Origin: a virus
Virus record (IMG/VR): IMGVR_UViG_3300017527_000194
Location: 1-29,072 of that record
Length of the DNA stretch: 29,072 nucleotides
Strand: one strand, 5' to 3'
The translations under genes were made by a program, and so were the position numbers. Below are positions 1,573 through 12,166 of the stretch, piece after piece (the stretch's first letter is position 1; every line of letters starts with the position of its first letter). The notes under the pieces were generated by a model. The model was given only the letters and a program-made list of their open reading frames with translations, made no database searches and was not told the origin of the DNA.

Positions 1573-2058
1573 ATGCCAGTTCCGAAACCTAAAAAGGGTC
1601 AAAGTAAAAATCAATATATGGATACTTGTATGCATGAGATCAGCAAGAATAGCGATAAAGATCAAAATCAACGTGTAGCTATTTGTCTAGGCACATGGGG
1701 AAAAGCAAATGAAGAAGAAGCCATATTGAATAAGTTCGATTTATTTTTAACAGAAGAGAAAGCATGTCCAGAAGGTGAGAAGTACTGACCTGTCAAGGGA
1801 GAATGTGTACCAGTTGGTACAGGAAAAAGAATGAGAAAACGACAAGGCAATGGTAAGGGTATGCAGGAATCTGTAGCAGTAGCAGAAGATGGAATCTTGG
1901 ATGCTCTGGAATACGGACATATGAGTAAAGATGAAGTATTCAAAATGATTAAAAAAGAATACGGTTTAAAAAGACATGAATTTAATATAGCTTGGCAGGG
2001 ATTACAAGCTGATGCAGACATTGTTTCCGTTGGAAATAAAAAATATAAAAGAGGATAA
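1573..2058 (+). CDS. Head/prohead-type protein with in-frame UGA and internal tag-like segment
   Basis: Two open segments (1573-1785 and 1789-2058) lie in one frame, separated by a single TGA at 1786. The N-terminal part has a phage motif I recognise from prohead-region proteins (PKKGQSKNQYMDTCMHE, then QRVAICLGTWGK). Residues 53-63 (ILNKFDLFLTE) copy the N-terminal tag of the neighbouring genes, but internally. The part after it, CPEGEKY-[TGA]-PVKGECVPV, aligns without gaps to CPKGQRYDKNKKVCVPV in the gene at 2960, so the TGA occupies the place of a real residue. The C-terminal half (LDALEYGHMSKDEVFKMI) is helical. Either UGA is read through or recoded, a 71-residue product is made, or the sequence carries a point change. 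Function unknown. Confidence 0.6.
1786..1788 (+). other. In-frame UGA codon inside a conserved motif
   Basis: TAC TGA CCT. The frame is open on both sides, and the codon falls inside a Cys-x12-Cys motif whose spacing matches that of a related gene in this window. The base after the stop is C, the context generally regarded as leakiest for UGA in bacteria. Confidence 0.6.
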
Positions 2059-2959: not shown

Positions 2960-3406
2960 ATGGATATTCTTAATAGAATAGATAAATTACTAGGAGATCA
3001 AGCTATGACCGCTGGTAGTGGAGCAACTACTACAGCTAACGTAGCTATTAATACTGCTAAAGGACATATAGATGTTGTGAGTGGTCAATGTCCTAAAGGC
3101 CAAAGGTATGATAAGAATAAAAAAGTATGCGTACCTGTAACAGATGAAATGTCTGTAGTTGGTGGATCTTACATAGCTGGAACAACCGTTAATATTATCG
3201 GGTCGGGGCAAACCAGAGCATGGGGAGTCAAGCGTGGTGATGGGCCACAAAGAGGAGGAGAAAGAGGAGAGATTACAGACTTAGATAGGAAAAATAAAAA
3301 AGAAGTAATGAGTGCTGATGCAACAATAGAAAACTTAGGCAGAAGGGGCTTAAAGTTTAATCATATCTTAGGTGCTTACGTGCCTAGTCAATGGGAGCAA
3401 AACTAA
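2960..3406 (+). CDS. Tagged protein with C-P-x-G-x-R-Y-x6-C-V-P-V motif
   Basis: 148 residues, with GAGGTAGAAT before the ATG. The tag MDILNRIDKLLGDQ has no Glu at the usual cleavage position, so it is either cut elsewhere or kept. Residues 43-60 hold the motif CPKGQRY-x6-CVPV, which is shared with the gene at 1573 and may form a disulfide or a metal-binding loop. The middle is Gly/Ser/Thr-rich, and the end (RRGLKFNHILGAYVPSQWEQN) is more structured. The stop codon overlaps the next ATG (TAATG), so the two are translationally coupled. Confidence 0.7.
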   Translation: MDILNRIDKLLGDQAMTAGSGATTTANVAINTAKGHIDVVSGQCPKGQRYDKNKKVCVPVTDEMSVVGGSYIAGTTVNIIGSGQTRAWGVKRGDGPQRGGERGEITDLDRKNKKEVMSADATIENLGRRGLKFNHILGAYVPSQWEQN

Positions 3407-3779: not shown

Positions 3780-4056
3780 TATATTAGATAGACTAGAAGT
3801 AGAAGAACTAATCCAAGACACTAAAGAATTTATGTCTGATCCAGAGCTTAAAGAGGAAGCAGTTAAAACGGCTGGATGGACTAAATCTTCTGTAGAAAAA
3901 TTCGGCAATACTATTGGACATGCTCCGTCAAAGAAAGGATTCTTTGATGCTTGTGTAACTAAAATGAAAAGTAGAGTAGATGATCCAGATGGTTTTTGTG
4001 CCAGTCTCAAAGATAAGTACTATGGTACTACAAATTGGAGAGGTAAAGAGAAATGA
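3772..4056 (+). CDS. Tagged protein with phage head-type C-terminal motif
   Basis: 94 residues from ATG at 3772, which overlaps the previous gene; an upstream GTG at 3763 is less likely because it displaces the tag-like start MNDILDRLEVEEL. The C-terminal half (KKGFFDACVTKMKSRVDDPD, then GFCASLKDKYYGTTNWRG) is a motif I recognise from many phage proteins, often at the ends of prohead or scaffold-region proteins: two Cys, a DDP turn and a terminal WRGK. The stop TGA overlaps the next ATG (ATGA). Confidence 0.7.
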   Translation: MNDILDRLEVEELIQDTKEFMSDPELKEEAVKTAGWTKSSVEKFGNTIGHAPSKKGFFDACVTKMKSRVDDPDGFCASLKDKYYGTTNWRGKEK

Positions 4057-4643
4057 AGTTAAAAAGATATCTCAAAGAACAATGACCACTTCAAACCATG
4101 TATGGTGAAATGTCCACAGGTGGTGGACTTGGATCAAATACAGAGTATGAACTAGCTGGTCAAAATATGGCAGAAGCGGCTCATTGTATACTTGGATCAC
4201 TAGTCAAATTAACTCCTCAAACTCCGTTTTGGGTAGAGAAAGAACATATTAAAGAAGAAATGGGTATCATAGAAAGAGCTATGAAAGAGTATAGTAATGA
4301 TCTTTATGTTGGTCGTGTTTTTAAAGGTGATTGGGCCGAAAAATCAATAATTTCTATTAAGAAACAAGCTCCTAAATTAGAAAAAGCGGCAATGAGCGCA
4401 AGACGTAGAATAGATAAAAATTTACCAAAGGAAATACAAGAAGTAGCTAAATATGCATATGACTTCTTAATACTTCTAGCAAGAAAACTTTTAGATAGTG
4501 TAACTGACATAGAAGAAGGAAATATGACAAACGCATATCAAAATTTAGCATTAAAATCTTCTGTTAAAAATTTACGAAAAAGAGTAAATGTTTTTTTAAA
4601 ATTACCAGATGATGGATCTTTAGAAAATCCATATAATAAATAA
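4053..4643 (+). CDS. Tagged helical protein with in-frame UGA after the tag
   Basis: The ATG at 4053 overlaps the previous stop (ATGA) and gives MKLKRYLKEQ, a classic tag with L-K-E before Gln. The next codon is TGA (4083), after which the same frame stays open to 4643. Without read-through, the only start for the 181-residue body is the ATG at 4098, which lacks a visible ribosome site. The body is mainly helical (EYELAGQNMAEAAHCILGSL, YAYDFLILLARKLLDSV), with one hydrophobic segment near the middle that is probably a buried helix. Decoding of UGA would decide whether the body carries the tag. Function unknown. Confidence 0.55.
4083..4085 (+). other. In-frame UGA between capsid-targeting tag and protein body
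   Basis: CAA TGA CCA, at codon 11 of the gene starting at 4053. The frame is open for 186 codons afterwards. As at 1786, the following codon is Pro and the base after the stop is C. Confidence 0.6.
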
Positions 4644-5252: not shown

Positions 5253-6580
5253 CTAAAAAAGAACAGATACTAGAGAAGTATTGGAGCAACAATAATTTCA
5301 ACCGAAAAGAATTAGCACAAAAATTAAATGTAGGAGAATCCTACATAAGAAAAGTAATTAGAGGATCAAAAAAGAATACAATAAATCAAGGCGAAAAGCC
5401 TTTAGAAGAGAAACAAGAATTCAACCGCACTTCACAAAACCGAGCAACACTTAATTTAGAATCACTAACAATAACTACCTTAGAACAAGCTTTAGATGTA
5501 GCTAATGTAGATATGACTCAATGGAAAGTTGATAGATATACCATTGGATCATGGCAAGTTACTCTAAAGCTGAAAAGAGAAATAGGTAAAGATTCTAAAG
5601 GTAATCCAATTTCAGATGATTATCCTAAGACCGTTACTATGTATAAGATTCAGGTATGGTTGATTAAGCTTCACAATATGGAGTGGGTTGAAGCAATTCG
5701 ATTACTTATAAAAGAAGTACCACAAATTAAAACTCCTAAAAGAATAGAACCATTTATAGAAGAGACAGATAGATATCTTTTAGAAGTAGCATTATTCGAT
5801 GTTCATTTTGGTATGCTGGCATGGGATAAGGAAACTCCACATGACTATGACTTAGATATTGCTGAGAAATTATACCTATATGCCGTACAAGACCTTTTAA
5901 ATAAATCCGCTGGTTATAAGCCTTCAAGAATTATATTTCCATTTGGAAATGACTTCTTGCACATTGATGATCCGACAAACTTGACTCCGCAAAATCGTAA
6001 TCCGCTTGACGTAGATTCACGGTTGATCAAGATCTATCAGAAAGCTAAGAAAGCAGTAATTAGAGCAATTGATTACTGTAGACAAATAGCTCCTGTAGAT
6101 GTTGTATGGATTCCAGGCAATCATGATCCCAATGTATCTTACTATCTATGTGACGTTATCTCAGAAGTATTTGCAGATGACGAACATGTGAATGTAGATG
6201 TCGGGCCGAAGTGGAGAAAATTCTATACTTGGGGAGATTCTTTATTAGTCTATACTCATGGAGTAGAAGAACCTCTTAGAGATTTACCTAGTATTGTTGC
6301 TACGGAGAAACCTAAACTTTGGGGAAATTCTAAATACAGGGAAATCCATATAGGACACAAACATAAGAAACAAGAAATGCGCTGGACTAATGTAGATACT
6401 CATGCTGGAACTGTACTTAGAATGATTCCTTCAATTGCTACAGAGGATGCATGGCACTACAGAAAGGGATACATCAAAGGTTATCATGCCGCTGAATCTT
6501 ACATATGGGATAAGAACTTTGGTGTGATCGGACAATTCACTAGTTATATTGACTATCCTGAAATGGTAGACGAATCATAA
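5249..6580 (+). CDS. Metallophosphoesterase with N-terminal helix-turn-helix
   Basis: 443 residues with a strong ribosome site (AGGGAGGAAATT). Residues 1-40 form a helix-turn-helix (RKELAQKLNVGESYIRKVIRG), so it probably recognises DNA. From residue 180 it has the calcineurin-like metallophosphoesterase motifs in order: FDVHFG (D184, H186), GND (233-235), GNHD (290-293), THG (H337) and GHKH (369-372). These bind two metal ions and hydrolyse phosphodiesters or phosphomonoesters. Similar HTH-phosphoesterase proteins occur in phages and may act on DNA ends or nucleotides, but the substrate is unknown. It closes the first plus-strand block and overlaps the 3' end of uvsW by six bases. Confidence 0.9.
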   Translation: MTKKEQILEKYWSNNNFNRKELAQKLNVGESYIRKVIRGSKKNTINQGEKPLEEKQEFNRTSQNRATLNLESLTITTLEQALDVANVDMTQWKVDRYTIGSWQVTLKLKREIGKDSKGNPISDDYPKTVTMYKIQVWLIKLHNMEWVEAIRLLIKEVPQIKTPKRIEPFIEETDRYLLEVALFDVHFGMLAWDKETPHDYDLDIAEKLYLYAVQDLLNKSAGYKPSRIIFPFGNDFLHIDDPTNLTPQNRNPLDVDSRLIKIYQKAKKAVIRAIDYCRQIAPVDVVWIPGNHDPNVSYYLCDVISEVFADDEHVNVDVGPKWRKFYTWGDSLLVYTHGVEEPLRDLPSIVATEKPKLWGNSKYREIHIGHKHKKQEMRWTNVDTHAGTVLRMIPSIATEDAWHYRKGYIKGYHAAESYIWDKNFGVIGQFTSYIDYPEMVDES

Positions 6581-8947
6581 TGATTGGTAGAAGGATTCTT
6601 TATTGATAAATTCTTCAATATCGAATCCTTCACTTTCATAAAACATAAATCTTTTATCTCCATGCTTACGTAAATACTTCACGTTATCAACTAAATCAAA
6701 TACAAAAGCTCCATCTGTTTTATCTTCATGTTGCCTTAAAGCTCTTCCTATAGATTGAAGTACTCTAATCTTACTTTTAAACGGAGCCGCTAATATCAAA
6801 TATTTAAGGTTAGGAATATTTATACCTTGCTGGAAAATGCCGTATGTAGCAACTAGCGCAATATTTTTCTTAGCTTTCATTTTCAATCTCCACTCTTCCC
6901 TGAAATCAACGTCATCTGTTCCGCTAAGAAATACGGTATCTCTCTTTGTATAGTTTCCAAGATATTCTAATAACTGATTACCTTCTCTTCGATATCCTAC
7001 AAGTAGTAAGACATTATGATCAACACTTTTAACTATATCCTTTATCAATTTCATTCTGAATTTAGTTTCAAATGTTTCTTTTTTTACATCTACATAGGAT
7101 TCAGCTTCTATATTCGGATAGTCAATGTTTATTACTTTCACGGTGCATTTAGCTATGTATCCTTGCTCACCTAATAATCCAGAAGAGTATTCTCTAAGAA
7201 TTGGCCCGATAAAAGCCTTTGTATTAAGAGTTTCCAGAATATCATTAGGCATTGTACCAGTAAAGCCAAGTCTATATCTAGCTGGTGATTTTGAGAATAT
7301 CTTCTTTAACTCATGCGCTTTGACTTGGTGACAATTTCCAGTAATCATAACTTTATTATTTCTACGTATAACAATATTTCCATATGGAACTTCAACACAA
7401 TATACCTTTCCTTTATATGGAACTATAGTCTTTTCTAATCTTTGAGTACTTCTCCAAGATTTCTTAAAAAAAGACATTCTATGAACACTTTTATAATTTT
7501 CACTTCTATTATCATGTTGGATATATCTATTACATTCCCATCCACCTACAGCACATATAGCTTGTACGAAATTAGCATTAGTAGAAGATGTTGTGCTATA
7601 ATATAATCTTTCTTTTATACTTCCATCCCATTTTACTAATTCATTTATAAATTCATTTACGAAGTTATTATTAACTTCTTTAAGTTTAATTATATCCCAT
7701 AAATTTTTTCTTATATTCTTTGGGGCTTTAACGTGAAATCTACGTGCATCTTCTTGAGGTTTTAATTCTTTCCATTCTAACTTAGTTAATTCCATAATAT
7801 GAAAAAATCTTTTTATTTTTCTTTTCTTCTTAAATTTAAATTGCACTAGTCTATGATTTTTAGTTGAATTTTCCCTATGTAGATATCCATCTGCTTGAGT
7901 CATTATTATAAATCTCATAAAAGGAGTCAATTCACCTTTGCCTTTAAGATATCCAGAAACAGGAAATTCTATAGAATGATTAAATTTAACATCTTTTATT
8001 TTACGTCTTCTATTAAATCTATTTCTAGTTTTTCTATTTGTAGACCTAAAAGGTTGTTCATGGTTTGGAGTAACTAGTAAATCAGTTTGTCTTCCTTTTA
8101 TATGGATTAATTCACCATCAATTTCTTTTTCTATATATCGAAAAGGTTTAACAAAATGCATGTTTCCTTTTTCATCCCACTCTGCTACTTTTTCATCATC
8201 TTCTAAATCTTTTACTAATTTCCATCCATTTTCTGTTAATATTTCGGTATCAGGAGATAAACATTCATCACCAATAATAACGTCATAGTCTTTTAAATAA
8301 TCCATGTTATTTTTCAGGGATTGCCAAGTAGTAATGACTATAGTTTTAGCCCATTGAATAGGTTTATTTTTTATCTTGTCATAGATCCTACCGATATATT
8401 TTTCTTTCAATCCATATTCCTGCATATCGGTATAAAATTGTTCTACTAGTTGTTTGGAAGGAACTATAATAATTGATCTACGAACTCTAGTCACATCCCT
8501 GTTATCAAGAAGTGTCTTTATTATATAAGATATAACAAGCGACTTTCCTGATGCGGTGGCGCTCCTGATGATCCCTTTGGTGTATCTTAGACAATATTGA
8601 ATAGCTTCAAGCTGGTAAGGATGTGGAGTCAAAGCTAAGTCAAACTTTATTTCTAAGTCATCTCCTTTATACAGAGCCTTTACGGAGTCATCTATTTCTA
8701 GTCCAATGTCTGGATAGTTCTTTGCTTCTCTTAGGAAGTCAGGTAGTAGTCCATATGGGAATGTTCCAGTAGGAGTAATCAGAGATGATTCTCCATTCCA
8801 CATTCCAGCTTTATACTTTGGACTCCAGAAGTAACCCTTTACCTTATGGGTAAAATGTTTCTTCATTTTGGAAAGGAATTTAGGATGATTGGAAAGTACT
8901 TTAATTCGTAAATTACCGTATAATACTAGTTGTGTTTTATATGCCAT
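6575..8947 (-). CDS. uvsW: UvsW-type superfamily 2 helicase interrupted by an intein
   Basis: 790 residues in total; removing the intein (229-538) leaves 480, close to T4 UvsW. The N-terminal 90 residues match the UvsW substrate-recognition domain (GYFWSPKYKAGMWNGE, FPYGLLPDF). Helicase motifs: Walker A ATASGKS (130-136), motif II D-E-C-H (split by the intein), motif III GFTGT, then VATYGIFQQGINIPNL and QSIGRALRQ. UvsW unwinds R-loops and branched DNA and supports the switch from origin-dependent to recombination-dependent replication. It lies downstream of a UvsY homologue, the same association as in T4. Activity depends on protein splicing, because the DECH box is broken in the precursor. 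The TGA stop is genuine. Confidence 0.92.
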   Translation of the reverse strand: MAYKTQLVLYGNLRIKVLSNHPKFLSKMKKHFTHKVKGYFWSPKYKAGMWNGESSLITPTGTFPYGLLPDFLREAKNYPDIGLEIDDSVKALYKGDDLEIKFDLALTPHPYQLEAIQYCLRYTKGIIRSATASGKSLVISYIIKTLLDNRDVTRVRRSIIIVPSKQLVEQFYTDMQEYGLKEKYIGRIYDKIKNKPIQWAKTIVITTWQSLKNNMDYLKDYDVIIGDECLSPDTEILTENGWKLVKDLEDDEKVAEWDEKGNMHFVKPFRYIEKEIDGELIHIKGRQTDLLVTPNHEQPFRSTNRKTRNRFNRRRKIKDVKFNHSIEFPVSGYLKGKGELTPFMRFIIMTQADGYLHRENSTKNHRLVQFKFKKKRKIKRFFHIMELTKLEWKELKPQEDARRFHVKAPKNIRKNLWDIIKLKEVNNNFVNEFINELVKWDGSIKERLYYSTTSSTNANFVQAICAVGGWECNRYIQHDNRSENYKSVHRMSFFKKSWRSTQRLEKTIVPYKGKVYCVEVPYGNIVIRRNNKVMITGNCHQVKAHELKKIFSKSPARYRLGFTGTMPNDILETLNTKAFIGPILREYSSGLLGEQGYIAKCTVKVINIDYPNIEAESYVDVKKETFETKFRMKLIKDIVKSVDHNVLLLVGYRREGNQLLEYLGNYTKRDTVFLSGTDDVDFREEWRLKMKAKKNIALVATYGIFQQGINIPNLKYLILAAPFKSKIRVLQSIGRALRQHEDKTDGAFVFDLVDNVKYLRKHGDKRFMFYESEGFDIEEFINKESFYQSL
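7334..8263 (-). mobile_element. Intein with LAGLIDADG-type homing endonuclease in UvsW
   Basis: Residues 229-538 of the UvsW precursor. It starts with Cys1 in CLSPDTEIL (block A), has TPNHEQPF (block B, about 293-300), and ends with VYCVEVPYGNIVIRR and VMITGN, followed by Cys as the +1 residue. The penultimate residue is Gly rather than the usual His. A central segment (FIIMTQADGYL near 346-356 and FINELVKWDGSI near 433-444) fits a divergent dodecapeptide homing endonuclease. Insertion falls between E and C of the DECH helicase box, giving the host sequence GDE-CHQVKA after splicing. Boundaries are set by these junction residues. Confidence 0.93.
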
Positions 8948-12125: not shown

Positions 12126-12166
12126 GCCGATGGGTTGAGTTATGCCATAACGCTTGAGGAGGATTT

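Follow-up and report, generated by a model that had tools for sequence, protein, structure and literature searches.

Conserved in-frame UGA codons followed by SECIS-like hairpins in two neighbouring phage genes: candidate selenoproteins

The sequence analysed here, called the window throughout, is a 29-kb viral fragment from IMG/VR (29,072 nt) that consists of a single contig and encodes a DNA polymerase matching T4-like phage polymerases at <30% identity. Two neighbouring genes on its forward strand each contain an in-frame UGA codon. The site-1 gene (1573..2058, +) has 161 codons when its UGA (1786..1788, +) is counted as a residue, followed by TAA; it reads ...CPEGEKY-UGA-PVKGECVPVG..., and collinear homologues that also have UGA occur in the related records L009 and L043. 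In the site-2 gene, a start codon and tag, MKLKRYLKEQ (4053..4082, +), precede the UGA (4083..4085, +), and the reading MKLKRYLKEQ-UGA-PLQTMYGEM... continues through a body of 185 aa that ends in TAA (4086..4643, +). The initial annotation had placed a UGA directly between this tag and an open frame, with a Pro codon and the base C behind the UGA at both sites. Both details are borne out: 185 residues and TAA follow 4083-4085, and the next codon is CCA at site 2 and CCT at site 1.

Both in the window and among its relatives, about one-fifth of the ORFs end in UGA, and tryptophan is written as TGG 156 times in the window. Behind most ORF-ending UGAs of the window lie only short further open frames, so these are ordinary stops and the code of the phage is unchanged; a reading of UGA as Trp throughout (code 4) was ruled out, UGA being a normal stop in this phage. 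A scan of 11 related records sought in-frame TGAs bridging conserved protein. Antisense frames dominated its raw output, and once antisense, repeat and leader artefacts had been removed by inspection, these records held no conserved in-frame UGA beyond the site-1 and site-2 families. The presence of two in-frame UGAs in one window could be taken to mean that the phage or its host has given UGA a new meaning, such as Trp, or that a phage tRNA suppresses it, yet the stop usage, the TGG count and the lack of other conserved in-frame UGAs make this very improbable, as does the finding that the many tRNAs of tRNA-rich phage records include no UCA tRNA. A phage-encoded UGA suppressor tRNA was rejected as a candidate, since those tRNA-rich relatives have no UCA anticodon and their CUA tRNAs concern UAG. 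A CUA-anticodon tRNA, labelled Pyl by ARAGORN, was seen in four records that are related or carry the site-1 module described below, L110 (G010), L168 (G019), L170 (G020) and L172 (G017); it is a possible UAG suppressor. Two of these four records also have a tmRNA gene.

The site-2 UGA recurs at the identical codon in a relative, as VKLKQFLKEGQ-UGA-PLQTMYGEM, whose protein is 73% identical over the full-length alignment. This relative is represented by seven IMG/VR contigs (L002-L008) that are identical in sequence at the locus and all have UGA, and the distinct site-2 UGA sequences number two, the window and the L002 group. Two further records encode the protein as one uninterrupted ORF in which Cys stands at the UGA position and the tag and body share a continuous frame, beginning MKFKNYLNEQ-C-PLQTQYGEM in L009 and MKLKKYLKEQ-C-PLQTQYGEM in L043. 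From 4098 on, the body is under purifying selection (pN/pS 0.47 against L002). The two halves, as these comparisons support, would form one gene whose UGA must be decoded in frame. To this extent the proposed read-through that joins both halves holds, given the uninterrupted Cys ORFs and the coding conservation across the UGA. The argument that two such sites make chance less likely is strengthened, the same in-frame UGA being kept in relatives of both.

A TGA that is one base from both TGT and TGG and is followed after 12 bases by an in-frame ATG could be a sequencing error or the mark of a nonsense mutation or pseudogene, the body being either started at ATG 4098 or left untranslated. We find this scarcely credible, because the same UGA recurs in diverged phages as well as in the seven identical contigs, the body is constrained as protein, and at site 1 protein conservation covers the codons between the UGA and the following ATG. 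No ribosome-binding site is evident before ATG 4098 (CAATGACCACTTCAAACC), and in the Cys orthologues L009 and L043 this codon is CAA (Gln) and forms part of the uninterrupted reading frame that begins with the tag, so that the argument for initiation there falls away. Body-only translation from 4098, which the initial annotation had named as an outcome that would overturn its reading, is thus disfavoured on both counts. The other such outcome, an error of assembly, is ruled out in the relative, whose seven contigs agree in sequence; the window itself is one contig.

The site-1 UGA is part of a small module, C-x6-U-x5-C. The pattern CPxGxx[YFW]-UGA-xxxxx-CVP was found in 16 distinct viral sequences, which belong to several gene families and show protein conservation both before and after the UGA. 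They include the L002-group contigs together with L009, L035 and L043; L037, L041, L091 and L133, in which a different protein carries the module at its C-terminus; and the further variants L078, L138, L140, L141, L143, L144 and L145. The proteins that bear the module differ greatly and often carry it C-terminally, and L010 has one ORF that lacks the module but contains the parts found on either side of it in the site-1 protein. The UGA is therefore not tied to a junction between tag and cargo, as had been suggested. The Cys-Cys spacing of the motif is preserved when UGA counts as one residue. Across the first five codons after the UGA, the window and L002 differ by four synonymous and no non-synonymous codon changes, and by codon comparison and selection calculation both the codons directly after the UGA and the remainder evolve as protein. 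Among named phages no relative of the site-1 or site-2 protein was found, and a search of bacterial genomes for the UGA module gave 14 pattern matches, all chance frames by inspection. In the L002 group (L002-L008 and L011-L017), the site-1 frame is broken after GKGM in all seven contigs, which indicates either degeneration or a shorter protein.

Homologues indicate which residues take the place of UGA. At site 2 the alternative is the TGT codon for Cys in L009 and L043. For site 1, a second copy in L035 closely resembles the motif (CPEGQQW-C-PVQKKCVPVG) and has TGT in place of the UGA, and the paralogous motif of L010/G008 and L049/G014 likewise has Cys. The site-1 peptide motif is widespread in phages with Asp, sometimes Ser or Cys, at this position, and the majority of homologues have Asp rather than Cys. 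A neighbouring gene in the window (2960..3406, +) carries the motif with Asp for UGA (CPKGQRYDKNKKVCVP) and offers a natural comparison. No true homologue had Trp at the UGA codon, scans for TGN giving UGA and Cys, and a control scan that put TAA or TAG in place of the site-1 UGA yielded a single contig, a chance match in a frame full of stops. The pairing of Cys with UGA is the basis of a published SECIS-independent search for selenoproteins.

A compact hairpin follows each UGA. The site-1 hairpin, UGUACC[AGUU]GGUACA (1806..1821, +), has a 6-bp stem and a loop of 4 nt located 23 nt after the UGA, with a folding energy of -6.5 kcal/mol; that of site 2, GUCCAC[AGGUG]GUGGAC (4112..4128, +), has a 6-bp stem and a loop of 5 nt located 32 nt after the UGA, with -7.9 kcal/mol. 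In the published model of the bacterial SECIS, the loop is 3-9 nt, the stem 4-16 bp, the spacing 16-37 nt and the energy <=-7.5 kcal/mol, and a G, frequently with G or U behind it, occupies loop position 1 or 2 (PMC13188914). The hairpins of both window sites agree with this geometry in spacing, loop, stem and G position. The energy cut-off used by bSECISearch, which serves to filter searches and does not define the element biologically, is reached by window site 2 and missed by its relative (-6.6 kcal/mol) and by window site 1.

Because a minimum-energy score alone poorly separated UGA sequences from Asp homologues, we used a criterion of loop, spacing and stem: a stem of >=5 bp, a loop of 3-6 nt with G in the first two positions, and a spacing of 16-37 nt. 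These values were picked after the first hairpins had been seen and are in line with the published model. Such a hairpin was found in 15 of the 16 site-1 UGA sequences and in 6 of 48 sense-codon homologues (Fisher p 5e-9, indicative only, the 16 sequences being partly related). In L144, the one sequence that fails, the hairpin is present but contains an internal mismatch. In L078, L138, L141 and L145 the hairpin spans the stop codon of the gene, so the constraint there is on RNA. The seven hairpin codons encoding CVPVGTG are unchanged in five phages, while the five codons before them do change. L037 and L091 show covariation, a stem A-U pair having become U-A at synonymous third positions, and the Cys copy in L035 has lost the hairpin. 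At site 2, the hairpin of L002, GCCUAC[AGGUG]GUAGGU, differs from that of the window by two double compensatory changes and one change of G-C to G-U, and the hairpin is absent from the Cys orthologues. Since there are only two site-2 UGA sequences and 17% of shuffled sequences pass the same criterion, the argument for site 2 relies on the Cys pairs and on the accompanying site 1. When about 75 nt downstream of each window UGA were folded, neither result was significant, and an Rfam scan of the first 6 kb of the window gave nothing relevant. As read from these sequences, the hairpin signal is the compact hairpin combined with the comparison to sense-codon homologues.

The initial annotation had proposed that low-level read-through makes a small tagged fraction of the cargo and so sets its dose in the head. 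A UGA followed by C is regarded as a weak termination context. Programmed leaky read-through of the Q-beta A1 type, in which a near-cognate tRNA such as that for Trp reads the UGA, perhaps aided by the hairpin, and a minor product doses the tagged cargo, would fit the UGA-CC found at both window sites, the few ORF-terminal TGAs of related records that have CC behind them (3 counted), and the presence of a hairpin that could stimulate read-through. We nevertheless consider it unlikely. Homologues have Cys and never Trp at the UGA, TAA and TAG are unused at the site-1 codon, and the UGAs of L078, L138, L141 and L145 lack the CC context. Cys homologues lack the hairpin, whose geometry suits a SECIS. 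At site 2 the short product would be only 10 residues long, and in the Cys orthologues no stop interrupts the full-length protein. The proposed dose-setting thus gives way on the points of Cys at the UGA in orthologues, exclusive use of UGA, and a hairpin like those of bacterial SECIS elements.

Selenocysteine (Sec) decoding occurs in bacteria, archaea, eukaryotes and a few animal viruses. By sequence comparison, the UGAs are conserved inside conserved coding sequence, replaced by Cys in homologues and followed 3′ by a hairpin of SECIS geometry; from this we infer Sec as the residue and the host as the source of the machinery. Cys at the UGA, the use of UGA only and the SECIS-like hairpin together argue for Sec insertion and for the identity of the residue being important. 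Both UGAs are thus most probably selenocysteine sense codons, at which Sec would be inserted by host machinery by way of the downstream hairpin. Host SelA, SelB, tRNA-Sec and SelD would recognise the hairpin just 3′ of the UGA and insert Sec, and the products would be full-length, MKLKRYLKEQ-U-PLQTMYGEM... and ...CPEGEKY-U-PVKGECVPVG.... In the incomplete phage records neither SelB nor an above-threshold tRNA-Sec was found, and with no UCA tRNA among them either, the Sec machinery would therefore be that of the host. Sub-threshold matches to the tRNA-Sec model were rejected, those checked being tRNA-Leu and tRNA-Tyr.

The tag bears on where the site-2 protein may go. The sequence [LIM]xE lies within residues 4-16 of 22 of the 49 window proteins, and a gp21-type prohead protease (Peptidase_S77) is encoded in the close relative G008, the one record out of eight fragment records in which it was seen. 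The protease fits the idea that MKLKRYLKEQ is a capsid-targeting tag and falls short of proving it. The resemblance, from the genes alone, is to T4 internal proteins with gp21-cut capsid tags, similar short N-terminal [LIM]xE tags standing on many window genes. A T4-type prohead-protease cut at LKE would leave a packaged site-2 protein with Gln-Sec-Pro at its new N-terminus. The body is predicted to be a helical bundle (pLDDT 80) whose first 27 residues are disordered; no family was found for it, and Foldseek gave no meaningful match (best E 0.12-0.17). Recurrent short [LIM]xE N-termini are seen, for example, at the gene starts 2060, 2742, 4053, 20134, 21056, 25201 and 26964.

More tentatively, diverse phages might share a small mobile Sec module, with the consensus C-P-x-G-x2-[YFW]-U-x5-C-V-P and a hairpin, on unrelated and probably virion-associated proteins, at least one Sec protein being capsid-tagged cargo; we think this possible and somewhat doubtful. 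If true, phage particles would contain packaged Sec and might also deliver it, and the phages would depend on selenium-using hosts.

The genes share with bacterial selenoproteins that have a bSECIS, of the E. coli formate dehydrogenase type, an in-frame UGA with Cys homologues and a hairpin that lies within the coding region just 3′ of the UGA at a spacing of 16-37 nt and has G at loop position 1 or 2. They differ in being phage genes of no known selenoprotein family, with many Asp homologues and weaker site-1 hairpins. In Q-beta, an RNA phage, the A1 protein is likewise extended past an in-frame UGA, but there the residue is unimportant and the short product is the major one, whereas here Cys replaces UGA and the site-2 short product is minute. 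Poxvirus glutathione peroxidases are another case of a virus using host Sec decoding (PMC8310308), host supply being assumed for the phages; those belong to animal viruses, use a eukaryotic SECIS, are captured host enzymes and are not homologous to the proteins described here. The selenoproteins that a 2021 review describes for viruses come from poxviruses (PMC8310308), a 2026 review of prokaryotic selenoproteins leaves phages and viruses unmentioned, and in the part of the literature covered we found no report of a phage selenoprotein. From their sequences, the two neighbouring genes look like they encode previously unreported selenium-containing phage proteins. If so, they represent new selenoprotein families, phages exploit host Sec machinery, their host range is tied to selenium metabolism, and standard gene callers split such phage genes at the UGA.

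Some other features of the window were noted. Positions 1-930 encode a long serine-rich repeat protein that is cut off by the start of the contig. A UvsW-like helicase gene (6575-8947, -) has an apparent intein (CLSPDTEILTENGW ... VMITGNC). Immediately 5′ of the DNA polymerase start lies CATAACGCTTGAGGAGG (12146-12166), which is kept in four related phages and is probably a translation-initiation or regulatory leader.
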